Below are positions 9,517-42,399 of a stretch of DNA of 47,905 nucleotides, in pieces. Both the position numbers and the translations under genes were made by a program. The DNA is taken from assembly GCA_001899235.1 (NCBI GenBank), contig MKVR01000002.1, positions 179,222-227,126 on the forward strand, written 5' to 3'. The first letter of the stretch is position 1; every line of letters starts with the position of its first letter. The notes beneath the pieces are model-generated. The model was not told the DNA's origin, made no database searches, and saw only the letters and a program-made list of their open reading frames with translations. The DNA is from Nitrosospira sp. 56-18. GTDB lineage: Bacteria; Pseudomonadota; Gammaproteobacteria; Burkholderiales; Nitrosomonadaceae.

Positions 9517-11571
9517 TCAACAGTTTTCACACTTGCCCGGTTCTCCAAGCGACTTGCCGCTCTCATGATCCTTGCAGTTGTGGCAATGCCAATACTTCCT
9601 CTTATAAGCCTTGCCCTCGCAATTCCGGCCCGACCAGCACCTGTACCCACCCTTCGCGGTTGCTTCTGCTTCTCCCCCTTCCCCCTCCTCCGCAGGAGCA
9701 GGAGCAGGAGCCGGGGCCGGTACGACCCGTTCTTCCCAGGAGAGATTGTATTGAGCAGTAGCATATGCCCAGTTCACATCCCCATCGGTGCCCCAGAACT
9801 CGTTCTCGCTGTCGGCAGCCAATTCGACGTAGGCCACCAGGTAAACGTCCACGCTCTTCCAGGCGCCTCCGCCCGGCTGGTCCCAGTTCAATGGCATGGA
9901 TTCATTCAGCACTGCCAGTTCGCCCTCATCCGTCTTGCTCAACGGAATTTTCACATCGACCGTCGCTTCACCCACGGGAAGCGAAACATCGACTTCGCCG
10001 ATGGACGACTTCTTCGCTTCGCTGCGCCCGCCGTCGTGAATGGGAGGAAACAGCGATTTTTGCGCGGGGGCAGGATCCCCAATGGTTCGCACCGCCACAT
10101 TTCCGGCAACCGCCGCGCCAGCCTGAGCATAGTGCAGATCGTCGGCTTCCGCACCTCCGAAAATGCTGGCCCCTCCCCTGAGGGTGAGCAGGTTGTTGTC
10201 GGTTCCGGTATGCACGAAGGTATAGCGCGTGTCGCGCCGCATCAGCAGATGGGCATTCCCGCCGTATATTTTCCAGAAACCCGCCACCTGCCAGGACTTG
10301 GCTTTTCCATAGACGCCCGTCGCGAGCGCAACCGCCAGATTGCTGGCGTTGCCGCTCGTACTGTCGCCGATTATCGGCTTGGTATTGGTGACCGTCTCGG
10401 TCAGTGCCCAGGCGCCCTGCATGACGTGGCCGTTGGTTCGCCCGCTGACATGGGGCAGTGCTGACGAACGTTGCACCCTATTCTCCGCCCCATCCGCAGA
10501 CAGGATGCGCTGTGCCTGAATGCCGCCGGAGAAACCGGATGCTGCCGATTGCTCTTTCTTCTTTTCCGCTTCGCAGGCGGAGCAGGCGCGCTGCAGGGAA
10601 GGGGCAAAGCTGGAACCGAGGCCGGCCTGTTCCGTTTGCGGCTTTCTTTCCGCCTGCAGCGGCGCTCCCCCGGTCTGCTGCACCACATGCGTGAGTTCGT
10701 GCGCGGTCAGCGCCAGGTCCTCCGGACCGTGCCCTGCGCCATAGTAGATGTCTGCCCCATGGGTGAAAGCACGCGCTCCCACGTCCCGATTCATCTGGAT
10801 GGCATCGGCTCCAGTGTGGGCGCGAACCTGGCTGAAATCCATGCCGAAGCGCGGCTCCATGAAGCTGCGCACCGCTTCCGGCAGAGGGTTGCCGCCGCCC
10901 TTGCTGCGGTTCAGGCTGGATTCGACATCTTCTCCGGCCTCGAAGCTTTCTGACAGGGAGGCAGGCTTGGCCTGCACGGCCTGGGTCCGTCGGATCGGCT
11001 GGGCCTGGTCTTCGTCCGCTCCAGCCTGCCGCATGGTCCCCATGCAGCTTCGCTGCAAGGCGGCTTCCTTTTCCGGCTCCTCTTCTTCAGGCTGGCGCTG
11101 GGGTTGCTGTGCCTGGACGAAAGGGGTAATAGCCGCGCCAAGCGAACCGGACCGGCTGGGCTGCAGCAGTTTGTCCCTGTCCTTGTCTTTTTCCGCTTCT
11201 TCCGGTGTGTGGTTCCCCGGGATGCCCGCGCGCTGGACGGAACCGGCCCCGAAGGATGGGAAGGCATCGGGCATGCTCATTACCTGGCGGGAAACGCGGT
11301 CGGCTTCCTGTTCGTACTGGTCGTCGGCAGCCCCCACGGTAAGCTTGGGCTGGATGCGGCTCATCCTGCAATCCATGATCCTGCCTTCGTGGGTGAGGCG
11401 TTTCGCCTGGATCAGCTCCGCTACCCGCCGATTGCCTAGTGCACGCTGCAACTGGAGGAACGGTGCGGAGCGCCCATCCTGATGCGAATGAAAAAAGGGG
11501 GGCTGGGCTCTATGATGAGCGAGCGGCTGTTTTGCTCTCTCAGGTGGCTCGGGCGAAAACTGTGCGGACAT
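9517..11571 (-). CDS. eCIS-associated DUF4157 protein with Cys-rich tail
   Basis: Protein of 684 residues ending the eCIS operon. N-terminal signature segments (QLQRALGNRRVAEL near residue 40 and QPKLTVGAADDQYEQEADRV near 75-95) are those found on eCIS-linked DUF4157 proteins. The DUF4157 domain covers about 230-305 with the metallopeptidase-like motif HELTH (H291, E292, H295) followed by VVQQTGG. After a CSAC pair near 330 comes a region of unknown fold (about 380-610), a Pro-Ala linker (about 625-640), and a final 43 residues with six cysteines arranged C-x5-C, C-x2-C, C-x2-C, probably a zinc ribbon or disulfide knot. DUF4157 proteins are a hallmark of eCIS clusters and are proposed cargo-related; the tail could be the effector or a docking module. 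It is separated by 165 bases from the ATPase gene, so it may also have its own promoter. Confidence 0.85.
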   Translation of the reverse strand: MSAQFSPEPPERAKQPLAHHRAQPPFFHSHQDGRSAPFLQLQRALGNRRVAELIQAKRLTHEGRIMDCRMSRIQPKLTVGAADDQYEQEADRVSRQVMSMPDAFPSFGAGSVQRAGIPGNHTPEEAEKDKDRDKLLQPSRSGSLGAAITPFVQAQQPQRQPEEEEPEKEAALQRSCMGTMRQAGADEDQAQPIRRTQAVQAKPASLSESFEAGEDVESSLNRSKGGGNPLPEAVRSFMEPRFGMDFSQVRAHTGADAIQMNRDVGARAFTHGADIYYGAGHGPEDLALTAHELTHVVQQTGGAPLQAERKPQTEQAGLGSSFAPSLQRACSACEAEKKKEQSAASGFSGGIQAQRILSADGAENRVQRSSALPHVSGRTNGHVMQGAWALTETVTNTKPIIGDSTSGNASNLAVALATGVYGKAKSWQVAGFWKIYGGNAHLLMRRDTRYTFVHTGTDNNLLTLRGGASIFGGAEADDLHYAQAGAAVAGNVAVRTIGDPAPAQKSLFPPIHDGGRSEAKKSSIGEVDVSLPVGEATVDVKIPLSKTDEGELAVLNESMPLNWDQPGGGAWKSVDVYLVAYVELAADSENEFWGTDGDVNWAYATAQYNLSWEERVVPAPAPAPAPAEEGEGGEAEATAKGGYRCWSGRNCEGKAYKRKYWHCHNCKDHESGKSLGEPGKCENC

Positions 11572-11736
11572 GTCTCATTTCCTGTATCGGCACTTGCATG
11601 CCATGATGGCGATTACGCTCGCCTCCCTGCTGACGCTTCGGCGCGAAGCGCATCCCTGTCTCGTTAAAATCCAGTCTAAACATAGACAATAGATCGCACG
11701 TAATCAAGTTTGAAGCGATTAGGAAAACATCGCTCG

Positions 11737-13941
11737 TCAGGTCTCCCCGATCGCCGCCAGTTCCTTGAAAGGAGCAACGAAATCGCTCTCGGAGACGAGC
11801 TTGCCCATTTTCTGGTACTCGCGCTGGGTTGCGCGGACGAGATGGCGCATTTCCACCACGCCGGTATCATCCGCTGCCAAAAACGCTGCGGATAGCGCGA
11901 TGTTTCGTATGTTGCCTCCTGTTATCTGGAACCGCCGCGCCAGGAAGTTAAGGTCCAGGCCAGGGTTGCGCGGCGTGGCCTCTGGCCAGACGCTCTCCCA
12001 AATCCTGCTCCTGTCCTCCTCCGCCGGAAACGGGAACTCGACGGTAAAATGCAGCCGGCGGACAAAAGCCTCATCCATGTTCTTGCGGAAATTGCTTGCC
12101 AGGATGACGATGCCCTCATGCTCCTCCATGCGCTGCAGCAGATAACCTGTCTCGATATTGGCGTAGCGGTCGTGCGAATCCTTGACCTCGCTGCGCTTTC
12201 CGAACAGGGCATCCGCTTCGTCGAAGAAGAGGATTGCATTCGAAGTTTCGGCCTCATCGAAAATCCGGGAAAGGTTCTTCTCGGTCTCGCCGATATATTT
12301 GCTCACGACGGTTGACAGGTCGATCTTGTACAGGTCCAAGCCCAGTTCGCCTGCGATGATATCCGCCGCCATGGTCTTGCCGGTGCCGGACGGACCTGCA
12401 AAAAGCACGCACAGACCCTTTCCCATTGCAAGCTTGCGGTCGAAACCCCAATCGCCATAGACGCGATCGCGGTATTTGACATGGTTGCAGATTTCGCGCA
12501 ATTGCTCGGTACGATCGCGGGGAAGAACGATGTCATTCCAGGAGTACCTGGATACGATCTTGTGCGCCAGAGCGGACAGCTTCTGGTTGGAATGCAGCCG
12601 GCACGCCTCATAGAGTTCGTTCAAGGTGATACGCGGCCTATCCGGATTCCGCCAGCGCGCGAGGTTTGCTGCGGTCTCCACCGTGCTGCGGATTTCGCTG
12701 CGCGAAAACTTGAATTTCACCGCAAGCTCGTCAATACCATGTGGGCTGGTATCGGTTTCATACGCAGCCAGCGCGGACCGCCATATCTGGCCGCGCTGGA
12801 TAAAACCGGGCCGGGGCAGCACAACCGCGTGGTAAATGATCCCGAGCGGCACATCGGCCGGATTCACGCCAGCCTCGCTGTCCACAAAAGATAGCGGACA
12901 ACCGTGTTTCAGGCTCTCCATGAAGATCAGGAATGTACTGCGGCGCTGGTCGGCGTTCAATGAATGCGCGCCTTTCCAGAATAATGCCGCATCCCCCAGG
13001 CGCGCTTCGCGCCGAATCAGGACAATCATTCTATTGAACTCGATATCGGATTCCACTGCGAGCCGCTCGAGATCGGCAACCAGCAGGCGCTGGTTTCGGT
13101 AGCGGCATGACGCCTGCGCCATGCGCAGCTTGTCCGGTGCGCCGGCACCCTGCAATTGCAGCACCAGGGGATGCGATTCCGAAGCAGCCGCTGCGAAGCT
13201 CATCATCCCTTGCCTGGTCTCCTCGTTCAGTTCGAGGGGATCGTCTTCCGCGGCGTCGCCGCTATCCATGAATTCCGCAAAAGGGCGAATGCGCTCGTCG
13301 ATGCCATTTGCGCCCAGCAGGTACTGAACGATGCGATCATCCGTTTTCAGATACTTCGACAGCAAGGGTGGGCGGGGCTGGGCAGGGTCCTCCAGCATCT
13401 CGACCAGATGGAAGCGCAGCAGCGGCGATTCCGGCTGAAGATTCCGCCGTGCCGCGATGCTTTGTTCGAGCGAAGGAGCGAGGAGGTTGAATATCAAGCC
13501 AACACCGGGCCTTTTCTTGCTGACATCATCCTGGAGGTAGGCGTACAGTTTCTCGTAGCGCAGATCGAATTCCACCGCCATGCAAACCAGCAAGACATCG
13601 ATGTCGAAGGGGTCGAGTTCAAACAGTTGCCGCACACGCTCCAGCCTCAGCTCGATTCCCTGTTGCAAGCTCGCCTGCCTGCACTGCTCTATGCGATGCT
13701 GCAGCATGCCCAGCTCGGAAGCCAGATCCTCGGGCCATGCCGGCTCGGGGGAGAGCCACTGCGGCAAGCCGATGGGCTTGCGCAATAACGCATCGACTTC
13801 CTGCTCATAAATATACAAGCCGCGAAACTGCTCGTCCTCGCCCGACAGCTCGCGCTGATGCGCGATCTGGAAACGCAGGAGCAGGTCGATGCGCTCCATT
13901 TCCGCCAGGAGATGAGACAAGGAGTCAGGGTAGGCCTGCAT
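11737..13941 (-). CDS. eCIS AAA+ ATPase (Afp15/Pvc15-like)
   Basis: Cytoplasmic AAA+ ATPase of 734 residues. The C-terminal AAA domain has Walker A GPSGTGKT (516-523), Walker B ILFFDEAD (570-577, D574/E575) and downstream ASNFRKNMDEAFVRR with the arginine finger. The first 470 residues include a second, degenerate ATPase-like region and a winged-helix-like segment, as in the Afp15 family. Every Afp/PVC-type eCIS carries one such ATPase, thought to assist particle assembly. The ATG at 13941 lies 44 bases after the preceding gene. It belongs to the same minus-strand operon as the structural genes. Confidence 0.92.
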   Translation of the reverse strand: MQAYPDSLSHLLAEMERIDLLLRFQIAHQRELSGEDEQFRGLYIYEQEVDALLRKPIGLPQWLSPEPAWPEDLASELGMLQHRIEQCRQASLQQGIELRLERVRQLFELDPFDIDVLLVCMAVEFDLRYEKLYAYLQDDVSKKRPGVGLIFNLLAPSLEQSIAARRNLQPESPLLRFHLVEMLEDPAQPRPPLLSKYLKTDDRIVQYLLGANGIDERIRPFAEFMDSGDAAEDDPLELNEETRQGMMSFAAAASESHPLVLQLQGAGAPDKLRMAQASCRYRNQRLLVADLERLAVESDIEFNRMIVLIRREARLGDAALFWKGAHSLNADQRRSTFLIFMESLKHGCPLSFVDSEAGVNPADVPLGIIYHAVVLPRPGFIQRGQIWRSALAAYETDTSPHGIDELAVKFKFSRSEIRSTVETAANLARWRNPDRPRITLNELYEACRLHSNQKLSALAHKIVSRYSWNDIVLPRDRTEQLREICNHVKYRDRVYGDWGFDRKLAMGKGLCVLFAGPSGTGKTMAADIIAGELGLDLYKIDLSTVVSKYIGETEKNLSRIFDEAETSNAILFFDEADALFGKRSEVKDSHDRYANIETGYLLQRMEEHEGIVILASNFRKNMDEAFVRRLHFTVEFPFPAEEDRSRIWESVWPEATPRNPGLDLNFLARRFQITGGNIRNIALSAAFLAADDTGVVEMRHLVRATQREYQKMGKLVSESDFVAPFKELAAIGET

Positions 13942-13985: not shown

Positions 13986-14978
13986 TCAGTATGATATCTC
14001 GACCGAAACCAGGGATATCCTGGCATATCCGCTGCTCCTGATATCCAGCGAAAGCGTGCCGCACTCGGCATCGAGCTCTCCGCTTTTGATCACGCAGGTT
14101 TCGTCATAGGGTCCGCCGGAGATCTCCTTTTCAAGCAGCTTGTTGCCTTTATCCTCCCGCCCGCCGACATGTTTTTTCCCAACCGCGTCCCAACCGCCCC
14201 GGAAAAGGGTGATCGTCAGCTTTTTTTCATTTTCCTCACCCGCAATCCTCAGCCGGTGGACACGCGTCACTCCGGGGGGCAGCGGAATTGCCATGGTTCC
14301 CCCCGCACCCTTGGTATTGGGCTTGCCATCGAAATCGCGATGCGCTCTGGCTTCCGTCGCGCCGATCCGGAAAGGGGGAGGAGGCGCCTCTTCCTTCGGA
14401 TCATTATCCTGGGGAATGGCGGTCGGCCGGAATGGAAGCCGCAGCCAGCCCTTGCGCAACCCCGGCTCCAACATGGCGACGGTGACCGATCCGGGCGAAA
14501 GCACGTTGCGCAACTCCCGGCGATTCACGATACTGATCGATTCGGCAGACAGCTTGCCATGATCGTCGAGCTGCACGGTGGCAAGTGGTACCGCAGCCTC
14601 CTCGATTCCGGTCGAAGCAGCGAGTACGCCATAATATTCCATGCGCGAATGGTCCTTCGAAGGCTGCTCGGTTTCATAGCTGGCGGTGATCTGGACCTGG
14701 GAGGACGGCGGGAAAGCGGACAGATCGAGTGTCTCGGACTGGCCGAAAACCACCTCGCGGCCCCGGCCATCGATCGCATAGCCGGAACTGACGCTGACCG
14801 CTGTATCGCCGGCGCGTATCACGTCGAGTCCGCGCACCACTCCCCATCCGTGCAGGTTGAGACTGTGCCGGGCCCGTTCATGGGCATGATATCTCTGTTC
14901 ATCGATAAAATCGTCCTGCAGCAGCAATTGCCCATGGAAATAGGCCGGCTTCTTGCCGATGATTTGTCTTTTACGCAT
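13986..14978 (-). CDS. eCIS peripheral baseplate-associated protein (unknown fold)
   Basis: Protein of 330 residues from the ATG at 14978, chosen because AGGAGG lies exactly six bases upstream; an ATG at 14984 directly abuts that site. The N-terminal region PAYFHGQLLLQDDFIDEQRY and HGWGVVRGLDV recurs in proteins next to eCIS and phage baseplate genes and is followed by a beta-rich part. The C terminus (about 225-330) resembles an added beta domain with GAGGTMAIPLPPG and ends SVEISY. I do not recognise a named family. The position between the P2-I-like gene and the ATPase is where Afp clusters carry fibre and tape-measure genes. It may therefore be the external appendage, though it has none of the repeats of a fibre. 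Confidence 0.72.
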   Translation of the reverse strand: MRKRQIIGKKPAYFHGQLLLQDDFIDEQRYHAHERARHSLNLHGWGVVRGLDVIRAGDTAVSVSSGYAIDGRGREVVFGQSETLDLSAFPPSSQVQITASYETEQPSKDHSRMEYYGVLAASTGIEEAAVPLATVQLDDHGKLSAESISIVNRRELRNVLSPGSVTVAMLEPGLRKGWLRLPFRPTAIPQDNDPKEEAPPPPFRIGATEARAHRDFDGKPNTKGAGGTMAIPLPPGVTRVHRLRIAGEENEKKLTITLFRGGWDAVGKKHVGGREDKGNKLLEKEISGGPYDETCVIKSGELDAECGTLSLDIRSSGYARISLVSVEISY

Positions 14979-15082: not shown

Positions 15083-15742
15083 TCAGGTTCTGATAGCTTC
15101 GTCCGATTGCGGAAACCGCAGCCGCAGCTCATAGGTTGTATGGGCCGGCTTGGCGAAATCGATGATCTCGCGCACCCGCTGCCCGAATTGTTCCCTGGAC
15201 TCCCTGTTTTCCTGCTGGAATTCGCGTTCTTCCACATCGATGGCAATGCAAAACCAGAATGGGCGATCACCGCCGAGCAGCGTATCCTCGCCCACTCTCG
15301 CCTGCCCGACAACCAGTCCCGACGCAGCCTGATCGTCTATTGCCACCCGTGAAATTTCCGGGAAACAGATTTTCAGCAACTGTTCCAGGTAAGGGCGCGT
15401 GCCGCGCCTGCCATACAGGGACGCAATGCGGAAGATAATGCTTCTCAGCTGCTGGGGCGGAAATAACGCGTGCGGCGTGAATGCGACCCAGGTAGCCAGC
15501 CAGGGCAGGAACCGGTCTGGCGCCTGGTCCACCTGCAGCCACCCGGGAACCTCGTCGCCGTGGGGAGAGAAGAGGCCGGGAATCGCTTCGATCTGCTCTT
15601 CGATTCCGGCCGGCTCCTGCTCCCTGGCGCGAAAAAGCATTTCCTCGAAAACACCCAGCAGGCGGCGAAGATTCCCCGTGGAATCCGCAGCGCGGTAGAT
15701 GGCGGGCAAGCTGTCCAGCAGCCGTGTTCCCACCTCACCCAT
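15083..15742 (-). CDS. P2 protein I-like tail protein
   Basis: Protein of 219 residues related to the phage P2 gpI/TIGR02242-type tail proteins of eCIS. It contains RLLDSLPAIYRA at the N terminus, then a Trp-rich segment WLQVDQAPDRFLPWLATWVAF and the conserved YGRRGTRPYLEQLLKI. In P2, gpI is at the baseplate rim where fibres attach. ATG at 15742 is preceded by GGAGG at five bases and overlaps the upstream gene by eight bases, indicating translational coupling. An earlier ATG at 15766 is possible but lacks such a site. No fibre gene follows it, which is unusual. Confidence 0.85.
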   Translation of the reverse strand: MGEVGTRLLDSLPAIYRAADSTGNLRRLLGVFEEMLFRAREQEPAGIEEQIEAIPGLFSPHGDEVPGWLQVDQAPDRFLPWLATWVAFTPHALFPPQQLRSIIFRIASLYGRRGTRPYLEQLLKICFPEISRVAIDDQAASGLVVGQARVGEDTLLGGDRPFWFCIAIDVEEREFQQENRESREQFGQRVREIIDFAKPAHTTYELRLRFPQSDEAIRT

Positions 15743-16949
15743 CGTAGCCTCCAATTCCTTGCGCATCGAGAATGCGCACATCCTCCGCGGCCAGGCTCAG
15801 CCGCAGGAGCTCCCAGGGCCGCAGAAGGATAGACACAAGCCTGCCTTCATCATTGCGAAGCAGGCGTCCCGAGCCCAGCATTTTCCGCCCGCCCAGCAGC
15901 GTATCAACCCCGATGGTCGAGCGGATTCCCACCTGGATGCCCAGCGCGGAATCCGGCTGGGCCAGGTCTTTCTCTCTGTCGCTCATCTGAAGGACGCGAA
16001 CATGCTCGACATAATCCACCCCGGCTGTTTCATCGATCGCCTCGATCAACTCCCCGATGCGCAACGGTTTGCCAAACAGCAAGCCGCCGGGACTGCCATC
16101 CATCTCCCTGGTCTGGAGATCCTGCCGCGGCAAGCTGAACCGGCGCCACAGGTTTTCGCTCAGGGCGGCTGACAATTGCTGCGCCGATTGCCCGGGCTGG
16201 GGAGCGATGGCTGCGCCGATGGCGACATGAAGATAAAGCGGCGCCACTACGTGCACGCGCGTCGTGAGAAGAGATCTCGCGAGCAGATCGTGCTTTATCT
16301 TTTCGCGCAGCTCCGCCGCCGAGGCCTCATCGAGTTCGCGTTCCGGCGCAACAATGACGCTGACGTGCGCCCGCTGATCGGGGGCGCCCGGATCCATGCG
16401 CCCCACCCGATCTGCTTCCAGGTTGATGCAGGGTACGCAGTGCATGCTTACCGGATACTCGGGCCCAAGGTGATCGCGAGCGGTATTACGCGCGATTTGT
16501 TCGAAATCCCGGGTGGTAACGGCGCACTCGTTGCCCATCAGATCCCGAACCACATAGCCTATCGCCGCGTCGAGTTCGGCAGCTCCGGCTAGCGCTATCG
16601 CACAATCCATTTCCTTTTCGAGGTCGATGGAACGAGACCGTGCAAGACTTTCCCCGCCTTCGCGCTGATCACCAGCGAGCAGAGCGAGAAACTGCGCCTT
16701 GCTCTCTTCCTCCAGGCCTTCCCAGTTTCCCCCTTTCAATAGCTTCAGGAATTGCAGCTTGCTTGCCGGAGTGATCCGGCCAATCCGGTAAACCAGCATC
16801 TCGGTGAAATAGGCCAGCAGCTCTACCAGCGTGATGCCGGGATCCGAAGGATTGTGATTGGTCCATCCCGGCGCGACGACTGGCAGCAGGGACAGGCCCT
16901 CCTGCAAAAGGTCGTCATAACTCCGGTCGTCGAGTTTAGGCGTCAGCAT
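15735..16949 (-). CDS. Baseplate wedge component (Afp12-like)
   Basis: Protein of 404 residues. The N terminus has LDDRSYDDLLQEGLSLLP and WTNHNPSDPGITLVELLAYF, the signature opening of eCIS and phage baseplate assembly proteins. The C-terminal half (about 215-330) has the beta-alpha pattern of a baseplate J-like domain, ending in AGVDYVEHVRVLQM. It should pair with the larger wedge protein encoded just before it to build the gp6/gp7-like baseplate ring. Its ATG lies within the stop region of that gene. It is shorter than Afp12 (usually 700-950 residues), so this is a compact version; the assignment rests on order and the N-terminal motif. Confidence 0.82.
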   Translation of the reverse strand: MLTPKLDDRSYDDLLQEGLSLLPVVAPGWTNHNPSDPGITLVELLAYFTEMLVYRIGRITPASKLQFLKLLKGGNWEGLEEESKAQFLALLAGDQREGGESLARSRSIDLEKEMDCAIALAGAAELDAAIGYVVRDLMGNECAVTTRDFEQIARNTARDHLGPEYPVSMHCVPCINLEADRVGRMDPGAPDQRAHVSVIVAPERELDEASAAELREKIKHDLLARSLLTTRVHVVAPLYLHVAIGAAIAPQPGQSAQQLSAALSENLWRRFSLPRQDLQTREMDGSPGGLLFGKPLRIGELIEAIDETAGVDYVEHVRVLQMSDREKDLAQPDSALGIQVGIRSTIGVDTLLGGRKMLGSGRLLRNDEGRLVSILLRPWELLRLSLAAEDVRILDAQGIGGYDG

Positions 16950-31948: not shown

Positions 31949-31964
31949 CGGCATGAAATTTGCT
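31949..31964 (+). promoter_or_regulatory. Sigma-54 promoter of the signalling operon
   Basis: CGGCATGAAATTTGCT keeps GG-N10-GC (GG 31950-31951, GC 31962-31963), GGCA and TTGC of the sigma-54 consensus, with T in place of C in the -24 box and C for the leading T. Predicted start near 31975, giving a leader of about 105 bases to the VWA-FHA gene. I see no riboswitch in that leader. Confidence 0.7.
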
Positions 31965-33652: not shown

Positions 33653-33682
33653 ACCCGACCATGCCGTATCAGGGAGAATCGC

Positions 33683-34618: not shown

Positions 34619-35351
34619 GGGCATTTTCGGGTGGTGGAAGAAATTTACCGGATCTGATTCGTCTGACAGTCCCCGCGTATGCGAAAAAGGACATCCGATG
34701 GATCCCAACTGGAAGATCTGCGCCTATTGCGAGGCCGAGAACCGCGCCCACCAGAAGACAGCTCAGGAACCTTCCCAACCTGTTTCAAGCGAACCACTGC
34801 AAAGGAGCACAGCCATGGAAAGAACAACCACGAAGGTAGAGGGCGCGATATCGCAAGAAGGCCAGGGAGAAACAAAATTCGATACCTCCGGCTTCAATCC
34901 ATATGAGAATGCCCCGCCCCCTAGAAGACCCTCCCCCACCCATCAACGGAGACTTACCGGCGTGCTGGTCACGTTCAAGTGGAGGCTGCAAGGGGAATTG
35001 TTTCCACTATACGAGGGACGCAATGTCATCGGATCGGGCGAGACCTCCGATGTGCACGTCACGACGGACAGGATGATGTCCGGCGAACATGCCGTGATTC
35101 TCTGCCGCGCCGGCAGGGACGAATTGCATGACATGCTGAGCACCAACGGCACCTTTCTCAATGAGAAATATGTGGAAAGGGATGGCGCAGACCTGGTGGA
35201 TGGTGCGTTGATCAAGGCGGGAGCCACTATTTTCGAGTTCCGGAAATTTACCAGCGGGGGCGAAAGGCGTCCGGAAGGAGAAAGAACCGGCTATTACGAG
35301 GATGAAGGCGGCAGCGGGCGATCCCGCTCCCAGGGAGAAACATCGATCTGA
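34596..35351 (+). CDS. Zinc-ribbon FHA domain protein
   Basis: Cytoplasmic protein of 251 residues. The N-terminal zinc finger is C29-x3-H33-x8-C42-x2-C45. A Thr-rich linker with ERTTTKVEG (75-83) could be the phosphothreonine target, much as the TT motif of GarA (inference). The FHA domain is at about 120-220, with GRNVIGSGETSD, MSGEHA and STNGTFLN carrying the phosphothreonine-binding residues. The C-terminal tail is charged. It is comparable to Fha1 of type VI secretion, the scaffold that switches on firing when phosphorylated. ATG 34596 has AGGA nine bases upstream and lies inside the phosphatase gene. Confidence 0.88.
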   Translation: MDSRSKSEGIFGWWKKFTGSDSSDSPRVCEKGHPMDPNWKICAYCEAENRAHQKTAQEPSQPVSSEPLQRSTAMERTTTKVEGAISQEGQGETKFDTSGFNPYENAPPPRRPSPTHQRRLTGVLVTFKWRLQGELFPLYEGRNVIGSGETSDVHVTTDRMMSGEHAVILCRAGRDELHDMLSTNGTFLNEKYVERDGADLVDGALIKAGATIFEFRKFTSGGERRPEGERTGYYEDEGGSGRSRSQGETSI

Positions 35352-35416
35352 CAATGAGGCTACGGCAAGAGGAAGCACATCTGGCGGGATTTGCGGCAAT
35401 CGATGGAGGGAACATC

Positions 35417-36055
35417 GTGAGGATTAGCGCTGTAATGCTGTTGGCCGTGATGACGGGGTGCAGCACCATGGGGGAAAAGCCGGGAAGCTCGGGAATGGCT
35501 GCGCTGGAATGCGGCGCAGTGGGCGCCGGCCTCGCCACCGCAATATGCATCGCGGCGGGCGGCAGTGCCGCGGCCTGCGCCGGCGCCGCCGCTGGCGGTG
35601 GGGCGCTGGGAGCCGGGATCTGCTATACGTATGCCCAGAAGTATGAAAAGCGCCGCCAGGAACTCGCCGGAAAAGAGAATGACCTGGACGCGCGATTGAA
35701 ATATGTGCGTGGGCTGAACGCAGACTCCGAAAAACTGAACCAGGACCTGAGCACGCGCGTAGCACAAGTCTCGAAGCGCACCGACAAGATCGTGGCTCAA
35801 ATAAATGAAGGCACCATTTCCCAACAGGAATTGGTCAGGGAAAGAGAAGGACTGCTCAAGGAGGAAAATACGGCGAAAGACCAGATCGCGCTTGAGAAAA
35901 GCGCACTGGAAGACATGAAGCGGTTCCAGGTGCGCCAAGCCAAGGCAGGAAGCCAAAGCGCGGAACTGGATGCCGAAATCCGCAGGCAGGAGCATCTGCT
36001 GGCCGAAACGCAAAATGCAACCCGGGCGCTCGCGGCACAGCGCCAGCGGATATAG
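35417..36055 (+). CDS. Glycine-zipper coiled-coil lipoprotein
   Basis: Predicted lipoprotein of 212 residues. I chose the GTG at 35417 (GGAGGG six bases upstream), which gives MRISAVMLLAVMTGC, a standard lipoprotein signal with Cys15. An upstream ATG at 35354 would add 21 hydrophilic residues before it. After the Cys comes a Gly/Ala-rich hydrophobic stretch (about 28-68) of glycine-zipper type, which may insert in a membrane, then a coiled coil of about 130 residues to the end. No family recognised. It is paired with a second coiled-coil lipoprotein 18 bases later. Confidence 0.75.
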   Translation: MRISAVMLLAVMTGCSTMGEKPGSSGMAALECGAVGAGLATAICIAAGGSAAACAGAAAGGGALGAGICYTYAQKYEKRRQELAGKENDLDARLKYVRGLNADSEKLNQDLSTRVAQVSKRTDKIVAQINEGTISQQELVREREGLLKEENTAKDQIALEKSALEDMKRFQVRQAKAGSQSAELDAEIRRQEHLLAETQNATRALAAQRQRI

Positions 36056-36073
36056 CCTGGATATCATGCCATT

Positions 36074-36541
36074 GTGGCGAATGAGATGACGGACGGAAGA
36101 GCAGGCATCGGCACATTGACAGCGGCAGCGCTTTTAGTAGCCGGGGTCGGCGGCTGCACCGTCATGCAACTCAAGAAGGACGTGGAGGCCGATGAGCTGC
36201 GGGTGGCGACCAAGGAAGAAGAGCTCAAAACCCAGGAGGCGCGGCAGGCTTCGTTGCAGGAGCAGATCGCCTCGCTGCGCAAGGACCTTGAAACCCGTCA
36301 GGTCACGATGGAAGACTTGCGGTCGCGCCTTGCTCAATTGCAGCAGGCAAACATGAATATGCATGCCCGTACCCAGGAGCAGCAGGCGCTTAAGCGCCGC
36401 CGGGAAATAAAATTGACGGCGCATCAGAAAGAACTGGCCGACATCCAGCAAAGCGACGCAACTATCGAGGAGAAGAAAAGAAAGCTGGAGCATCTCAAGG
36501 AAGAAATCAGGAAATCCCTCAATCTCCTGGTGCACTCCTGA
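36074..36541 (+). CDS. Small coiled-coil lipoprotein
   Basis: Protein of 155 residues (GTG at 36074, or 151 from ATG 36086) with signal sequence and lipobox AGVGGC (Cys28), then a continuous coiled coil with heptads to the end (EEELKTQEARQASLQEQIAS, EEKKRKLEHLKEEIRKSL). It is likely anchored to the outer membrane and may pair with the preceding lipoprotein. In the type VI threonine-phosphorylation pathway the sensor arm also includes an outer-membrane lipoprotein (TagQ); this gene pair holds a similar place, without visible homology. Confidence 0.75.
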   Translation: MANEMTDGRAGIGTLTAAALLVAGVGGCTVMQLKKDVEADELRVATKEEELKTQEARQASLQEQIASLRKDLETRQVTMEDLRSRLAQLQQANMNMHARTQEQQALKRRREIKLTAHQKELADIQQSDATIEEKKRKLEHLKEEIRKSLNLLVHS

Positions 36542-36547
36542 TCCGGC

Positions 36548-37714
36548 ATGAAACAGATATGCATCCGCAAAGAAACCGCCATCCTGGTATTGATGGCGGC
36601 CTTCCTTGGCGGCTACGTTGCCGGGCCTGCTCTGCCCTGGATGAAGGAAGCAGACGTTCCGCCAGGTGCGCGGCCGTCTGAAACCAACGAACCGGCAATC
36701 AGGCACTACGCGGAAGCACTGGTTCACATAGAGCGCGACGCAATGTTTTCAACACCTGCCGACAGCCCCCAGGAAATCGTCGCTTCATCCCTGAGAGCTT
36801 ATCTCGGGCAAAAAGATCCTTACTCGGATTTCCTCACGAAGGAAGAATATGCAAAATTCATGGAAGCGAGCCGCGGGGAGCAGACTGGGATTGGCATGGA
36901 TATCGAAAAACGGCGCAATGGAGACATCCTCTGCTATCCCATCCCGAATGGTCCCGCCGCACAGGCGGGAGTCAAGCCGGGAGAGCAGTTGCTTTCGCTC
37001 GATGGCGTTGCCACGCGCGGGAAATCCCTTCCCGCTATCGTCTCCCTGGCTGCCGGCAGACAGGGAGTCCCCATCGTGGCCGAACTGGAGAACAGTAGCG
37101 GCAACCGCAGGCTGGTGTCCATCATTCGCGCCAGATTCTCTGCCCAGCCGGTATCGGAATATACCCATCGCTCCAGCCGCATTATCAGGCTTGCCAGCTT
37201 CACGCCCAATACCAGGCAGGAGCTCGACTACCTCGTTTCGAAACAGCGCCAGCATGACTATATCATCATCGATCTGCGCGGCTGTGGCGGAGGGGATTTT
37301 TATGCCGCGGTGGATTCGGCAATGCTCTTCCTGGCGAAAGGCGAAGAGATCGTTTCGGTAAGCGGGCGGTCCGGCAGCCAGGATTATTCGGCCACGATTT
37401 CGCATGTGCCTCCCGCGCAGCGCATTTTCCTGTGGCAGGATGAATTCACCGCCAGCGCAGCGGAGATATTCATCGCCGCGCTCACGGAAAATGATCGCGG
37501 CATTTCGGTCGGCACGGCAACTGCCGGAAAAGGAACCCGGCAGGACATCATCAAGCTGCAGGATGGCGCAGCATTGATTCTGACCACCGGGTACCTTCTG
37601 ACCCCGCGGGGAGTCGAATTCGACGGCTCAGGCTTGAGACCCATGCATCAGGTCGAGGGGGATGCTCCCGATGAGGATGATTTTTTAAGCAAAACGGCGA
37701 TGTTGACGGGTTGA
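36548..37714 (+). CDS. S41-family C-terminal processing protease
   Basis: Membrane-anchored or periplasmic serine protease of 388 residues. N-terminal signal anchor at 9-30, PDZ domain about 110-195 (GIGMDIEKRRNGD, GPAAQAGVKPGEQLLSLDG) and the S41 catalytic core with IIDLRGCGGGDF, nucleophile S303 in TASAAEIF and general base K328 in TAGKGT. All catalytic residues are visible. The place inside a phosphorelay operon suggests regulated cleavage of an envelope partner, perhaps the kinase or VWA ectodomain (inference). It is six bases after the small lipoprotein gene. Confidence 0.9.
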   Translation: MKQICIRKETAILVLMAAFLGGYVAGPALPWMKEADVPPGARPSETNEPAIRHYAEALVHIERDAMFSTPADSPQEIVASSLRAYLGQKDPYSDFLTKEEYAKFMEASRGEQTGIGMDIEKRRNGDILCYPIPNGPAAQAGVKPGEQLLSLDGVATRGKSLPAIVSLAAGRQGVPIVAELENSSGNRRLVSIIRARFSAQPVSEYTHRSSRIIRLASFTPNTRQELDYLVSKQRQHDYIIIDLRGCGGGDFYAAVDSAMLFLAKGEEIVSVSGRSGSQDYSATISHVPPAQRIFLWQDEFTASAAEIFIAALTENDRGISVGTATAGKGTRQDIIKLQDGAALILTTGYLLTPRGVEFDGSGLRPMHQVEGDAPDEDDFLSKTAMLTG

Positions 37715-37741
37715 GCGAGCCTGAAGGAATGGAGCGATGGC

Positions 37742-39070
37742 ATGGAAAACGATGACCTGGTCGGCACGATAGTTCATGGCAGCTATGCCATCATCTCCAA
37801 GCTCGGCGAAGGCGCGATGGGAAGGGTTTACCTGGCCGAAAATGCCCTTGTGAAGGACAAGAAATACGCTATAAAAGTTCTCAAACGGGAATTGACCCGG
37901 AGTCCGAATTTCAAGCAGCAGTTCTACGATGAGGCCGCGCACCAGGCGCAGCTTTCCCATCCCAATATCGTTCAGATGTACGATTATTTTCAGGTGGGCG
38001 AGGACTATTTTCTTGTCCTCGAATACGTCGACGGCCGCTCGCTGGCCGACATGATCGATGCGCTGGATGGTCCGATGCCGGAGAAGCAGGCCCTGGCCAT
38101 CTTCAAGGGCATCCTCGCGGGTCTCAATTGCGCGCACGAGAAAGCCATCCTGCACCGCGATATCAAGGCGTCGAATGTGATGGTCGATAGCTCCAATCGC
38201 GCCCTCCTGACCGATTTCGGCATCGCACGGCAGATTGGGGGCGAACATGCGGCCAATCTGGGACGCGTCATTGGCACTCCCGAATACATGAGCCCGGAGC
38301 AGTTCGTCAATTCCGACAAGATTGACCACCGGTCGGACGTGTATTCGGCAGGCATTCTCCTGTTCGAAATGCTTACCGGGCAGCTTCCATTCAAGGGCGC
38401 CACCCAGGACGTACTCAAGGCGCAGCACGTAGGCACGCCCATTCCCAATCCTCGCACGATCAATCCCAGGCTCAAAAAACCCCTGGCTGAAATGATATTG
38501 AAGGCGACCGAGAAGAATCCAGACGCCAGATATCAGGGCTGTCTCGCTTTCCTGAAAGCGATCGAATCGTATGAACGGGGCACAAGCTGGAAAATCTGGG
38601 GACTGAGCCTGTCCATCCTCCTCGCGGCAAGCATATGGTATTTTGTGCAAAACCTGAAAGCAGTCAGGACCCTGGCAACCCTTGCAACCGATAACTATGC
38701 GTTGCTGTGCCGGGAAGCGGAGATATTGAAGCGCAAGGAAACAGGCTTGCATGTCGCGTCGGAAACCGGCAACGCGGAGATGGTGGAAGCATTTTCACGA
38801 CATGTGAAGGACCATAATGCGAATATCGAGAAATTTTATGAAGACTATGCCAATGCACTCCGCGAATTGGCAAAATTCCGCACAGCTACCGCACACAAGG
38901 TATTTGCCGCGCCGGAACAAATAGATGAAGCGCAGCGTGCGCGATACGAGCAGGCCGATGAATTGAAGCGGGCGCGATTCTGGGAACTCACCGGCGGGGA
39001 CTACGAGAGATTCAGGAATAGCGGCGAAGATCCATCGAAGGCAGCGATGCTGGCGCAGTGCCCGCCCTGA
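37742..39070 (+). CDS. Transmembrane Ser/Thr protein kinase (PpkA/PknB-like)
   Basis: Hanks-type kinase of 442 residues. Glycine loop GEGAMGRVY (22-30), K45 in AIKVLK, catalytic HRDIKASN (D140, N145), DFG at 158-160, GTPEYMSPEQ in the activation region: a complete active kinase. A single transmembrane helix lies at about 284-303, then a periplasmic domain of about 140 residues that is helical and charged, without PASTA repeats. It would sense an envelope signal and phosphorylate the FHA proteins in the same operon. The upstream gap is 27 bases. A second, weaker start is not needed. Confidence 0.94.
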   Translation: MENDDLVGTIVHGSYAIISKLGEGAMGRVYLAENALVKDKKYAIKVLKRELTRSPNFKQQFYDEAAHQAQLSHPNIVQMYDYFQVGEDYFLVLEYVDGRSLADMIDALDGPMPEKQALAIFKGILAGLNCAHEKAILHRDIKASNVMVDSSNRALLTDFGIARQIGGEHAANLGRVIGTPEYMSPEQFVNSDKIDHRSDVYSAGILLFEMLTGQLPFKGATQDVLKAQHVGTPIPNPRTINPRLKKPLAEMILKATEKNPDARYQGCLAFLKAIESYERGTSWKIWGLSLSILLAASIWYFVQNLKAVRTLATLATDNYALLCREAEILKRKETGLHVASETGNAEMVEAFSRHVKDHNANIEKFYEDYANALRELAKFRTATAHKVFAAPEQIDEAQRARYEQADELKRARFWELTGGDYERFRNSGEDPSKAAMLAQCPP

Positions 39071-39134: not shown

Positions 39135-39527
39135 ATGGAACTGCAGGTAAAACGGACGGATTTCTTCGATAACAGCACGATAGGCGAACTGTCGGTAAAC
39201 GGACAATTTGAATGCTATACGCTGGAAGACAAGGTCAGGCCGGTCAAAATCAAGGGAGAGACTGCGATTCCGGCCGGACGCTATGAGGTCATCATCAACT
39301 ACTCCCAACGTTTCGATCGTCTGCTCCCGCTTTTGCTCAGCGTCCCCAATTTTGAAGGCGTGCGTATCCATCCCGGCAATACAGCGGCCGATACCGAGGG
39401 GTGCATATTGGTGGGTGTGACGAAAGAGCAGGAATTCATAGGTCAAAGCAGGGTGGCGTTCGAACAGCTTTTCGCCAAGCTGAAACCCGCGTCCGAAACT
39501 GAAAAGATATTCATCGAGATAGCATGA
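39135..39527 (+). CDS. DUF5675 family protein
   Basis: Protein of 130 residues of the DUF5675 family. Conserved features are FECYTLEDKVRP, TAIPAGRYEV, and VRIHPGNTAADTEGCILVG with a His and a Gly-Cys pair that recalls the HxxxxxxGC arrangement of L,D-transpeptidases. Family members occur in phages and near secretion systems; a peptidoglycan-related activity is suspected but not shown. A strong AGGAGA lies seven bases before the ATG. The stop overlaps the start of the secreted Cys-rich gene (ATGA). Confidence 0.83.
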   Translation: MELQVKRTDFFDNSTIGELSVNGQFECYTLEDKVRPVKIKGETAIPAGRYEVIINYSQRFDRLLPLLLSVPNFEGVRIHPGNTAADTEGCILVGVTKEQEFIGQSRVAFEQLFAKLKPASETEKIFIEIA

Positions 39528-40072
39528 AAGTACAGGCACTCCGCCAAATCACACTGGGCTTCCTGAAAACTTTCGCTCTTGGCTTTGCTATCCTGGCTTC
39601 TTCCGGAGCCTCGGCGCAAGAGGCGCCCACCCCCTTCCTGCACGACAAGACATATATGCTTCCATCGGGGAAAAAAGTTGCAGTGAAATTCCGCGAGCGC
39701 CGCTGCGCCCCTGGCGAATGCCGCGAGGTCGACGCGGGCGTCTGGGGGATGGATGGAGGCATACCCCGATTTGTCACCGAAACTTTCTCGGTGGTCATCG
39801 ACGGCAAGCAATTCCTCATTCCCGAGAAATTCTACAGGGACCTGACCAATACCACCCATCTCGCCGTTTCCGAAATGCATGAGCAAATCATCATGGAGCT
39901 CCAGGGAGGAGAAGGCACCGGTGCCTACAAGGCCAAGTTCATGCTCGGCGGCATGTGCGGATTCGAGCGAAAAATTTGCGGTGAAATATGCAATGAAATC
40001 TGGGAACAAAGTGTGTGGCATAACTCGTTCGCATACACGTCCGATCCATTTTGCAAAAGCGGAATTCAGTGA
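39524..40072 (+). CDS. Secreted Cys-rich protein, possible immunity partner
   Basis: Unrecognised protein of 182 residues with a signal peptide (1-32, cleavage near ASAQE) and six cysteines in the mature part (CAPGEC, MCGFERKICGEIC and a last FCKS), fitting a disulfide-bonded periplasmic protein. It is translationally coupled to the DUF5675 gene and is followed by the PAAR-like gene. This order (possible cell-wall enzyme, periplasmic protein, spike tip) is like effector-immunity-PAAR groups of type VI secretion, which is inference only. Confidence 0.7.
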   Translation: MKVQALRQITLGFLKTFALGFAILASSGASAQEAPTPFLHDKTYMLPSGKKVAVKFRERRCAPGECREVDAGVWGMDGGIPRFVTETFSVVIDGKQFLIPEKFYRDLTNTTHLAVSEMHEQIIMELQGGEGTGAYKAKFMLGGMCGFERKICGEICNEIWEQSVWHNSFAYTSDPFCKSGIQ

Positions 40073-40120: not shown

Positions 40121-40510
40121 ATGCCGAATCACGTTTGTAATGGCGCAACGCTGACATGCAGTTTCGGGCTCGCACCGAGTCAGCTTGCCGTATTGCCCGT
40201 CAACAGGATGATGACAAGCAGCCAGCCCGCAGCCACCATCATGGATTACAAGCCCATGGTAAATATCCTCCCCTTTGGCGCATGTACCAGTCTCGCCAAT
40301 CCGGCCGTGGCCGCAGCCACATCCGCGGCTTTTGGCGTGCTTACCCCGCAACCCTGCATCCCCTTCACGGCGGCCCCCTGGGTGCCGGGCGCCGCAACTG
40401 TCCTGTTGGGAAATCAGCCCTCCCTGGATAATGTCTCGACGCTCAATTGCGTCTGGGGAGGAATCATCCAGGTTGCCGCTTCCGGACAATTCAAGGAACT
40501 CATTCCATAG
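40121..40510 (+). CDS. PAAR-like spike tip protein (DUF4280)
   Basis: Protein of 129 residues of the DUF4280/PAAR-like family: HVCNGATLTCSFG at the N terminus, MDYKPMVNILPFGACTSLANP in the middle, PQPCIPFTAAPW and the C-terminal LNCVWGGIIQV. The Cys pattern of the family is present. Such proteins sharpen the gp5 spike in CIS. The structural operon on the other strand has no PAAR gene, so this should be the missing tip (Afp10 role). AAGGAGA precedes the ATG. Confidence 0.9.
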   Translation: MPNHVCNGATLTCSFGLAPSQLAVLPVNRMMTSSQPAATIMDYKPMVNILPFGACTSLANPAVAAATSAAFGVLTPQPCIPFTAAPWVPGAATVLLGNQPSLDNVSTLNCVWGGIIQVAASGQFKELIP

Positions 40511-40772: not shown

Positions 40773-41855
40773 ATGAACTACGAAGAGTATGAGCCTTGCC
40801 GCAGGGGAAAAGCGGATGCGCAAAGACTGTTTGCCGCGGAAGACGGCATGGCTGAATCAGGAATCAGGACGGACAAATTTCTCCTTCTGGGCCGCTCCGA
40901 GGCCTTCATCCGCATGATTGCGTTAATCGACAAACTTGCAAAAGTGCAAGCGCCGCTACTCATCGAAGGCGAAACCGGAACAGGCAAGGAAATGGCGGCA
41001 CGCGCCATACATTATCGTGGAGCCCGGCGCGACCAGGCATTCGTTCCGATAAATTGTGGAGCGGTTCCGGATAATCTGGTCGAAAGCGAACTTTTCGGAC
41101 ACATCAAGGGCGCATTTACCGATGCCCGGATAGACCGGCCTGGCCTGGTGGAAACCGCCGCGGGAGGAACCCTGTTTCTCGACGAAGTCGATGCCCTCAC
41201 GCCCCGCGCCCAGGTGACGCTGTTGCGATTTCTCCAGGATGGCAGTTACCGCCCCATCGGCGCCCGTGTAGAGCGCAAGGTGGATGTCCGCATCATCGCT
41301 GCCACCAATAGCCGCCTGGAGGATCTGGTGAAAACGGGGGCTTTCCGCCCGGATTTACTGTACAGGCTGCGAATTCTCGGGATGAAGCTGCCGCCGCTTC
41401 GTGAGCGGGAAGATGACGCCGCATTATTGGCGAATGCCTTTTTCGAGCGCTGCAAGCAGCAGTTTCCCTGTAATGCCAGGGAGATCGATGAGCGGAGTTG
41501 CAACTGGTTCCGAAGCTATCCCTGGCCGGGGAATGTCCGCGAACTGGAGGGATTGGTATACCGCCAGGCGGTCATCTGCGATGATACCACGCTGCGATTG
41601 ACATGCCCCGCCGGAGTCGACTCCGGAGTTGAGGATGGAATCGGCCACCGCATGTCCAACCTATGCACACACAGCTATTCCACCTACTCGTCGGCGAAAT
41701 CCGCGGCACTGGAACAATTTGAACAGGAATATCTCAGCCGTTTGATGACGCGAGCACATGGCAATGTCAGCCAGGCTGCCCGTCTCGCAGGAAAGGAGAG
41801 GCGCGCGCTGGGCAAACTGTTAAAAAAGCATGGAATCAGGGCGCGCGAGCTGTGA
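40773..41855 (+). CDS. Sigma-54-dependent transcriptional activator
   Basis: Enhancer-binding protein of 360 residues without a receiver domain; only about 35 residues precede the AAA+ core. Walker A GETGTGKE (66-73), sigma-54 contact loop GAFTDA (113-118; the usual GAFTGA with Asp117, a variant found naturally in the family), Walker B TLFLDEVD (133-140), R-finger region FRPDLLYRL, sensor [12 protein letters not shown]-terminal Fis-type helix-turn-helix lies at about 330-355 ([20 protein letters not shown]). With no N-terminal sensor it must be controlled by level, by a partner or by phosphorylation. It is the expected activator of the three sigma-54 promoters in this cluster. GGGG precedes the ATG. 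Confidence 0.93.
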
Positions 41856-41864
41856 CAAAACTGA

Positions 41865-41876: not shown

Positions 41877-42038
41877 ATATTTGGCACACTTGCCAGAACC
41901 CGTTAAACAGGCCCCGCACCTGGGTTTGTTCAGGTGATCGCTTCCCGGTTCGGCATCCGGACACGCATCCCTCTCGCATGAAAAAACTGATGTCCCGCTT
42001 TGTCAACGCATGCAGCTGCCAGGCAGTTTCTTATTCAA

Positions 42039-42054
42039 GGGCACAATTTTTGCT
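42039..42054 (+). promoter_or_regulatory. Sigma-54 promoter of the 98-residue gene
   Basis: GGGCACAATTTTTGCT: GG 42040-42041, ten bases, GC 42052-42053; GGCAC and TTGC agree with the consensus. The predicted start is near 42065, 38 bases before the ATG at 42103, which rules out the longer reading frame from 42010. Confidence 0.7.
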
Positions 42055-42102
42055 TCTGTATTGAACAGATCAATTGCATATCATCGCACGTTCAAGGAAG
42101 CA

Positions 42103-42399
42103 ATGCCGATGACACCCGAGAGGACGAAGTCCGAACCCGGACCGTATACAGGTACGGATCCCCGCCTGGAAATAATAGAGTATCTGCATCTGCATCCCTA
42201 CGCTGCAGACACCGTGGATGGCATCATCCACTGGTGGCTCTCCCGCCAGCGATACGAGACGGCGAAGGCGGTGATACAGCGCGCCCTCGACGACCTGGTG
42301 AACCAAGGCGTCATCGATTGCGTGCAAGCCGCGGACAATACCAGGGTTTTCCGGCTATCCCTGGATCGCAAATCGCAGGAACCGCCGAGGAATGAGTAG
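42103..42399 (+). CDS. Small winged-helix-like protein in the sigma-54 regulon
   Basis: Protein of 98 residues. The core (RLEIIEYLHLHPYAADTVDG, then ETAKAVIQRALDDLVNQGVI and a short beta pair ending TRVFRLSL) reads like a winged helix-turn-helix. Similar small proteins are annotated only as hypothetical. Start 42103 is supported by AAGGAAG and by the promoter at 42039-42054. As the third sigma-54 target next to the activator it may be a co-regulator or anti-activator, but this is inference. Confidence 0.75.
   Translation: MPMTPERTKSEPGPYTGTDPRLEIIEYLHLHPYAADTVDGIIHWWLSRQRYETAKAVIQRALDDLVNQGVIDCVQAADNTRVFRLSLDRKSQEPPRNE

Follow-up and report, generated by a model that had tools for sequence, protein, structure and literature searches.

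How a bacterium times the action of an extracellular contractile injection system (eCIS), and how it protects itself as the maker, is an open question, and it is raised by a locus of Nitrosospira sp. 56-18, a soil nitrifier from a group of ammonia oxidisers. We analysed this locus in a window of 47,905 nucleotides (contig MKVR01000002.1, positions 179,222 to 227,126; coordinates below are those of the window). A full eCIS on the minus strand (9517-31172) stands divergent to a signalling operon on the plus strand (32081-39070), which encodes, in this order, a VWA-transmembrane (TM)-FHA protein, a PP2C phosphatase, a four-Cys FHA protein, lipoproteins 1 and 2, a PDZ-S41 protease and a Ser/Thr kinase. 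We propose that the two operons form a single sigma-54-transcribed unit, in which a dedicated phospho-signalling module licenses a late step of the particle, and we consider this reading probable. That the module is dedicated to the eCIS and co-regulated with it is well supported; what it gates we infer. The sequence argues for the unit through linkage, co-inheritance, paired promoter-like sites, intact motifs, purifying selection, retention of the module beside an eCIS of another type and the absence of TssK from most carriers searched. This suggests that the cell regulates a particle usually seen as simply built and released, and the module thereby bears on the question of timing and self-protection.

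Two divergent operons

Forty open reading frames (ORFs) of the window were scanned with Pfam, covering both operons. Genomes are cited by code: G000 is the window's genome, G004 Nitrosospira sp. Nl5, G010 Nitrosovibrio tenuis Nv1, G014 Nitrosospira sp. NpAV, G016 a Nitrosospira metagenome-assembled genome and G019 Nitrosovibrio sp. Nv6. The initial annotation had described a kinase, a PP2C phosphatase, two FHA proteins (one with a VWA domain), two lipoproteins and an S41 protease divergent to the eCIS, and Pfam matches together with reading of the sequence bear this out:

32081-33652, plus strand: VWA (predicted periplasmic)-TM-cytoplasmic FHA protein (Pfam VWA 7e-14, FHA 3e-16)
33683-34618, plus strand: PP2C phosphatase (PF00481 1.4e-14)
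34596-35351, plus strand: FHA protein with a four-Cys (zinc-ribbon-like) N-terminus and linker Thr79 (FHA 9e-10)
35354-36055, plus strand: coiled-coil lipoprotein 1 (by reading, a lipobox and a conserved Cys; start uncertain)
36074-36541, plus strand: coiled-coil lipoprotein 2 (lipobox by reading; weak spanin-like match, phrog_739 7.9e-04)
36548-37714, plus strand: exported PDZ-S41 protease (PF03572 1.1e-29; hydrophobic N-terminal segment)
37742-39070, plus strand: Ser/Thr kinase with one weak predicted membrane segment and a C-terminal ectodomain (PF00069 1.8e-54)

The motifs whose residues we take to be catalytic are invariant in the phosphatase (9/9 alignment rows), the protease (8-row alignment) and the kinase (7-row alignment); against the NCBIfam Stp1 model the phosphatase scores 220.1, slightly under the cut-off of 230. 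A hydropathy scan (one method, with the membrane-segment cut at 1.6) gives the VWA-FHA protein a single strong segment at residues 344-362 and a weak N-terminal signal (1.36). The C-terminal part of the kinase has no Pfam match. Linker Thr79 is read as Thr in 8 of 9 aligned rows and is ambiguous in G346, a genome of another family; the column not being invariant, Thr79 is a lead at most as a universal phospho-site.

The envelope-directed parts of this operon also lend themselves to a different reading, in which the S41 protease and the two lipoproteins, under kinase control, remodel the envelope, or lyse some of the cells, and so free the particles. Lipoprotein 2 does weakly resemble Rz-like spanins (7.9e-4), but that match is marginal, no holin or endolysin family match was found among the window proteins scanned (ten proteins only for PHROGs), and tblastn found no homologue of the S41 protease or of lipoproteins 1 and 2 in the first 20 kb of the module-bearing G346 contig, so that we regard such a release device as improbable. 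The kinase moreover matches PD-T4-6 models of PADLOC at 1.6e-82, and the phosphatase matches one candidate model at 9e-9, as a defence or immunity module with an anti-phage-like kinase, sharing the island with the eCIS by chance, might do. Those kinase matches, however, span the kinase domain only and are shared by many models, none of the three further module proteins scanned has a PADLOC match, and the module adjoins eCIS genes wherever it was found, with a control region common to both; a defence function is very unlikely.

The facing operon carries the eCIS core complete in one cluster (sheath, tube, baseplate, hub/spike, Pvc15 ATPase, Pvc16 and DUF4157). A full structural set had been announced at the outset, and all the parts then named are recovered by Pfam:

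9517-11571, minus strand: DUF4157/eCIS_core protein, candidate cargo (PF13699 3.3e-25)
11737-13941, minus strand: Pvc15-type ATPase, winged helix and AAA (PF22977 4.6e-59, PF00004 1.9e-26)
13986-14978, minus strand: fibre-like protein, named by position and resemblance (no Pfam, PHROG or PDB match)
15083-15781, minus strand: P2 gpI-like tail protein (PF09684 0.0096, below cut-off; syntenic)
15735-16949, minus strand: second baseplate-wedge-like protein (by position and synteny; the G014 homologue has a weak J match)
16943-20014, minus strand: baseplate J-like wedge (PF04865 5.7e-19)
20011-20421, minus strand: gp25-like sheath initiator (PF04965 2.4e-26)
20495-21124, minus strand: spike, OB fold (PF04717 2.5e-30; start set by homologues)
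21115-22185, minus strand: hub, GPD-like (PF05954 5.4e-07, slightly under cut-off; PF24032 (YQBQ) 1.1e-06, above its own cut-off)
22199-22876, minus strand: CIS tube protein with LysM (PF19266 9.4e-35, PF01476 2.1e-04)
22864-25428, minus strand: 854-aa low-complexity protein, candidate tape-measure (conserved ends, variable middle; no family match)
25514-25963, minus strand: second tube protein (PF06841 (gp19) 2.6e-29)
26175-26543, minus strand: tail assembly chaperone-like protein (phrog_508 1.4e-08)
26540-26989, minus strand: main tube protein (PF06841 1.8e-45; solved relatives exist)
27008-28339, minus strand: second sheath (PF04984 7.1e-17, PF17482 1.3e-06)
28395-30206, minus strand: main sheath, start uncertain (PF17482 2.3e-14; same-type genus homologues align from residues 54-62)
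30184-30576, minus strand: small conserved eCIS protein (syntenic at five other same-type genus loci)
30573-31172, minus strand: Pvc16-like terminator, corrected start (PF14065 (Pvc16_N) 7.6e-33)

Among solved structures, the sequence of the main sheath is best matched by chains of 8bky, 9ezm, 8bl4, 7b5h, 7adz and Afp/Pvc entries, all eCIS-like particles. The Pvc16 start had been placed at 31262 but is probably at 31172: five of the six same-type homologues begin to align at residues 29-31, and the sixth, of G010, at residue 14.

Distribution of the module

Every full-length match to the VWA-FHA protein lies near eCIS genes, at nine loci: seven genus genomes, G346 and a plasmid of Paraburkholderia caribensis. 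The searches behind this count were sampled and threshold-limited. The protein occurs in 7 of 61 relatives, all within the genus (7/23 genus genomes), and its contig carries in each case a Pvc15 homologue at a distance of about 18-20 kb (7 kb in G019); Pvc15 homologues at E <1e-100 are present in 10/23 genus genomes. A class sample returned 2/369 genomes (the window's and G346), an order sample 3/399 (the window's genome, G016 and G643, the last an FHA-only match) and a sample of G346 relatives 5/94 (G346 and four with single-domain matches). In the class and order samples three to four first-look candidates were scored per genome (thresholds 1e-20 and 1e-15), and diverged modules may escape. 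A scan of named genomes with two short peptides gave six loci, five of them genus relatives and one FHA-only (Sphingomonas jatrophae). Partial matches in G643, G128, G126, G095 and G075 were not counted as modules; a local profile scan of the G643 surroundings showed one FHA match only.

The two loci outside the genus differ in completeness. The 26.5-kb contig of G346 holds a partial and rearranged version of the unit: DUF4157, VWA-TM-FHA, Cys-ribbon FHA, another FHA, PP2C, kinase and Pvc15, the last with 55% identity to that of the window. Local profiles found no sheath, tube or baseplate gene on that contig, the only one of G346 searched for them. Among 72,556 plasmid records, the Cys-ribbon FHA (G346 query) and VWA-FHA (window query) each match one, that of P. 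caribensis MBA4, which is also top-ranked for Pvc15 (an AAA protein with matches of some strength in 1,887 records). It has the window's layout, a full eCIS divergent to VWA-FHA, PP2C, FHA, kinase, lipoproteins 1 and 2, S41, a second kinase and DUF4280. The initial annotation had asked whether such signalling operons occur apart from eCIS and whether the two operons are co-conserved: in the samples searched, no full-length VWA-FHA match lay apart from eCIS genes, and the pair is kept in Nitrosospira relatives and Paraburkholderia, and partially in G346.

Local scans with profiles built from the module itself found it at none of 18 other eCIS neighbourhoods and at none of 30 IMG/VR loci (27 contigs, flanks <=10 kb). 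Of the former, G971 gave no match at all, one G024 locus only gp25 and Pvc15, and G036 an orphan PP2C fragment 14 kb off; 26/30 of the latter show an eCIS gene beyond the ATPase. No relative turned up in scans of viral sequences with alignments of the FHA, fibre-like and VWA-FHA proteins. A Pvc15 tree was made from 36 chosen rows, 13/30 IMG/VR loci among them, and without G1073, G980, G971 and both G024 loci; it has several long branches and a root for drawing only. In it, eight module-bearing eCIS fall in one clade (100/99) with Nostoc adjacent, and G019 pairs with G013 (100/100) elsewhere; the module label changes twice on this tree, and 0/500 shuffles were as low. Some 27 kb past the Nostoc eCIS there is a gene annotated as a Ser/Thr kinase. 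G004, a module carrier, also has another eCIS-like cluster, very different from the first, that lacks the module (G004:C23:303000-342999; L090, L091).

Inheritance as one unit

Within the genus, the eCIS and signalling operon are present, absent or relocated as a block, together with the gene for a sigma-54 activator. Both operons are syntenic in six genus genomes, and in a seventh, G019, the eCIS is of another type. The interval from CysZ to an L,D-transpeptidase measures 2.9-4.2 kb in 15/23 genus genomes and 9.3 kb in G003, against 36-62 kb in five carriers (G000, G004, G010, G016 and G019); it is split across contigs in G014 and G018, and the unit of G014 is spread over two contigs, one carrying the module next to CysZ and the other the activator. 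G022 has the short interval, yet carries eCIS, module, DUF4280, activator and its small neighbour at another place. At two island-less sites read in detail, an activator match is lacking (G022) or covers only 49 residues (G003). Compared with G010, the window has the segment between CysZ and DUF4280 in the opposite orientation.

The two operons also diverge in step. Mean identities of six signalling proteins and of up to ten eCIS proteins are correlated over seven loci (r 0.87; 30/5040 permutations as high), and remain so when Paraburkholderia is omitted (r 0.65; 20/720 permutations as high). Nonsynonymous divergence (dN) is well below synonymous divergence (dS) for six signalling genes (lipoprotein 2 was left out) in four genome pairs, with dS at or near saturation in several. 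A unit that is mobile in this way, inverted, relocated and patchy, might bring together chance neighbours that merely hitch-hike in an island; against this stand the adjacency in 9/9 loci, the low dN and the retention of the module beside a different eCIS type, and we give passive carriage hardly any credence.

A probable shared control region

Between the operons, and at the edge of the unit, lie the following features, of which the initial annotation had mentioned neither the paired promoters nor the activator:

31237-31252, minus strand: sigma-54-type -24/-12 promoter TGGCACGGATGTTGCA, facing the eCIS operon (12/12 consensus matches)
31405-31422, no strand: inverted repeat TGGGT-N8-ACCCA, candidate activator site
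31758-31775, no strand: second TGGGT-N8-ACCCA repeat
31949-31964, plus strand: sigma-54-type -24/-12 promoter CGGCATGAAATTTGCT, facing the signalling operon (10/12 consensus matches)
40773-41855, plus strand: sigma-54 activator without a receiver domain (PF00158 6e-61, HTH_8; AAA from residue 39)
42010-42399, plus strand: small gene adjoining the activator

Sites were scored by matches out of 12, taking the best site per strand of the divergent gap. In G000, G004, G010, G014, G016, G022 and G019, in that order, the eCIS-facing site scores 12, 11, 9, 11, 9, 11 and 11 and the signalling-facing site 10, 11, 10, 10, 10, 10 and 10; out of 300 mononucleotide shuffles of each gap, 0, 1, 16, 2, 9, 0 and 1 reached its best site. 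The pattern YGGCAYG-N4-TTGCW at zero mismatch is unique in the window to the divergent gap, and with one mismatch allowed its five occurrences against 3.39 expected are not above chance. It is exact on both sides in G000, G004, G014 and G019, and on one side in G010, G016 and G022.

The repeat TGGGT-N8-ACCCA stands in one or two copies between the promoter sites of all seven genus module genomes. The window has two, each of 100 window shuffles none, and 1.09 Mb of other stretches eleven, ten of them in these gaps and one near the G019 activator; additional single copies occur outside the gaps in the stretches of G014 and G022. In the module-less G003, G011 and G013, with another eCIS type, 60 kb of each contain neither the exact promoter pattern nor the exact repeat. 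The activator follows the same division: at least 69% identity in the seven module genomes and in 0/16 other genus genomes, of which 7/16 have homologues at 49-52% and 9/16 none at 1e-80. Both operons are probably transcribed from the divergent sigma-54-type promoters by the edge-encoded activator, which may bind the repeats. Zero-mismatch sigma-54-type promoters also lie 0.2-0.4 kb upstream of module-less eCIS sheath frames at G041:C24:8454 (L086) and G058:C21:272853 (L084); sigma-54 control of eCIS may extend beyond module carriers.

An activator with no receiver domain, co-inherited with the island, and paired promoter sites with repeats between the operons would also suit a transcriptional sensor, in which the module tells the activator when to switch on both operons and the particle is an ordinary free eCIS. 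Paraburkholderia, however, has a near-complete module with no activator in the 46 kb read and no sites, and G346 has a partial module, likewise no sites, and nothing that matches the activator at 1e-80. Since both lack the activator match and the sites, the older role of the module probably did not run through this activator, and we judge a mainly transcriptional role unlikely.

A possible exchange of the particle

Nitrosovibrio sp. Nv6 (G019) has an intact set of signalling genes from VWA-FHA through kinase, and keeps both promoter sites, two repeats and the activator. The eCIS beside them is of another type, its Pvc15 and sheath 38% and 42% identical to those of the window, and its sheath gene starts 0.2 kb beyond the promoter site (925768), at 925970. 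Its fibre-like protein (662 aa) is a composite: residues 1-485 match that of module-less G013 (59%), whose frame ends at 497, and residues ~494-659 are 66% identical to the C-terminal domain of the window's fibre-like protein (Paraburkholderia 51%). The C-terminal ~170 aa of the window's protein thus recur on an eCIS of the other type. Given this chimaeric layout, the promoters, signalling genes, activator and one particle domain of G019 are of the first kind and the rest of the particle is not, as would result had the particle been exchanged beside the module. Five DUF4157 frames follow the ATPase gene of this eCIS (G019:C6:934377-943850; L032).

The retained domain may couple particle to cell, or may be a target-binding part. 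As the sole first-type particle domain found on the different particle of G019, it is a candidate plug, and it is possible, though we advance this tentatively, that the eCIS-type particle is held in its producer, coupled through this plug and gated by envelope-sensing threonine phosphorylation. If true, this would be a third way to deploy contractile injectors.

Relation to known systems

The threonine phosphorylation pathway of the type VI secretion system (T6SS) counts PpkA, PppA, Fha1 and TagF among its members, and the initial annotation had likened the module to it. The logic of that comparison stands: common to both are a Ser/Thr kinase, a PP2C phosphatase and a cytoplasmic FHA protein, and both have lipoproteins, an extracellular VWA domain and a contractile machine nearby. 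Membership does not. The VWA domain sits on the FHA protein and not on the kinase, scores of 35.8 and 17.7 bits fall far short of the cut-off of the TagH model (TIGR03354, 120.25), the contractile machine is an eCIS, and an S41 protease and a Cys-ribbon FHA protein are added. In Pseudomonas aeruginosa, by contrast, excerpts of PMC3224232 place the VWA domain within the sensor domain of the kinase PpkA itself. No Tss family match was found among the 40 window ORFs scanned, and TssK is present in one of eight module genomes searched (Paraburkholderia lay outside this search, and G346 is 85% complete).

That one carrier is the window's own genome, on another contig, C17. The T6SS there (G000:C17:60000-81875; L106, L107) has its own kinase, lipoprotein-like genes, FHA, PP2C and a TagF-like gene; its TagF, TssM and TssL were named by eye. 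Service of the module to a T6SS in trans was rejected, the TssK match being absent in 7/8 carriers searched and the C17 system having its own kinase, FHA and PP2C, and this system offers an internal comparison for the eCIS module. FHA proteins such as GarA, OdhI and FhaB work with Ser/Thr kinases and have a conserved Thr in the linker before the FHA domain. The four-Cys protein shares that linker Thr, but differs from them in its Cys ribbon and its eCIS linkage, and FhaB and OdhI models score below cut-off.

With the eCIS Afp, PVC and AlgoCIS (PMC8213781) the window has in common sheath, tube, hub, spike, baseplate, Pvc15, Pvc16 and DUF4157. Excerpts of that survey name the regulators GerE, BTAD and RfaH and read VWA as a toxin domain, and its text contains no mention of FHA, phosphatase or Nitroso-; PMC12210884 likewise does not mention kinase, FHA or phosphatase. 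Some eCIS-adjacent VWA genes read as toxins may be signalling parts. In open-licence PMC literature no report, by title or abstract start, of an eCIS-linked FHA/kinase/phosphatase module was found among the matches listed, nor one for Nitrosospira contractile injection or sigma-54 contractile injection. The thylakoid-anchored contractile injection system (CIS) of Anabaena (PMC8894136) is a particle kept in the cell, as that of the window may be; according to excerpts of that paper it is anchored by a predicted membrane helix of Cis13, whereas the hydropathy scan shows no such clear helix in the window's fibre or baseplate protein. The Pvc15 of the Nostoc plasmid is 51% identical to the window's, whether or not the Nostoc eCIS is of the thylakoid type.

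Proposed mechanism

Based on these observations, we propose that the kinase and the PP2C phosphatase would set the threonine phosphorylation of their FHA partners, with the VWA-TM-FHA protein, the lipoproteins and the S41 protease reporting the state of the envelope. A periplasmic cue would lead the kinase to phosphorylate an FHA partner, and phospho-dependent binding would then permit a late step of the particle: assembly, membrane docking, firing or release. What we infer here is that the envelope is sensed, which target is phosphorylated and which step is gated; licensing through FHA phosphorylation is proposed by analogy with T6SS, where, in excerpts of PMC3224232 and PMC12607579, phosphorylation of Fha by the kinase recruits components to the inner membrane.

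Several observations weigh against this mechanism or narrow its reach. The membrane segment of the window's kinase (residues 285-303) scores 1.57, under the cut of 1.6, with 1.43-2.66 at the equivalent place in eight relatives, and by the same hydropathy method the structural proteins show no clear membrane anchor, with marginal segments (1.6-1.7) in one wedge protein and the second sheath. The VWA domain of G022 lacks the metal-site motif, the remainder of the protein being kept (L029:13402-15000). In the control region, the eCIS-facing scores of G010 and G016 are modest, at 9/12, and 16/300 and 9/300 shuffles reach the best site of the respective gap. The divergent regions of Paraburkholderia and G346 have neither sigma-54 sites nor repeats (best scores 9 and 7, matched by 85/300 and 287/300 shuffles), and shared sigma-54 control is therefore indicated for the genus only. 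Finally, 3/10 genus genomes with a full-length Pvc15 (G003, G011 and G013) have no module, their eCIS being of another type at about 40% identity, and close eCIS relatives on the Nostoc plasmid and at IMG/VR L120 show none in the stretches read, so that the module is not obligatory for this particle type.

An inherited kinase/phosphatase/FHA switch, kept across an exchange of particle, would join the worlds of T6SS and eCIS control. Natural controls are at hand in related particles without the module, a different particle with it and island-less sites.

Flanking genes and variation in the signalling operon

On the plus strand 3' of the kinase follow DUF5675, a secreted-protein gene, DUF4280 and the activator. 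The third of these, which like the activator had escaped the initial annotation, is a spike-tip candidate:

40121-40510, plus strand: DUF4280 PAAR-like protein (PF14107 4.7e-34; IglG-like 6.6e-15, below cut-off)

DUF5675 and the gene of the 182-aa secreted protein (39135-40072) were considered as an eCIS effector-immunity pair and rejected; both also lie beside CysZ at the two island-less sites read, and we therefore take them as flanking genes. In G019, with its other-type eCIS, the frame of DUF5675 is broken and the adjoining secreted gene carries stops (L031:6975-7894). G010 has a second, FHA-less VWA copy between the small neighbour of the activator and a flanking TPR gene (L028:14246-15358). 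A second, shorter kinase stands between the Cys-ribbon FHA protein and lipoprotein 1 in G010, G014, G016 and Paraburkholderia; it was not found at that place in the window, G004, G019 or G022.

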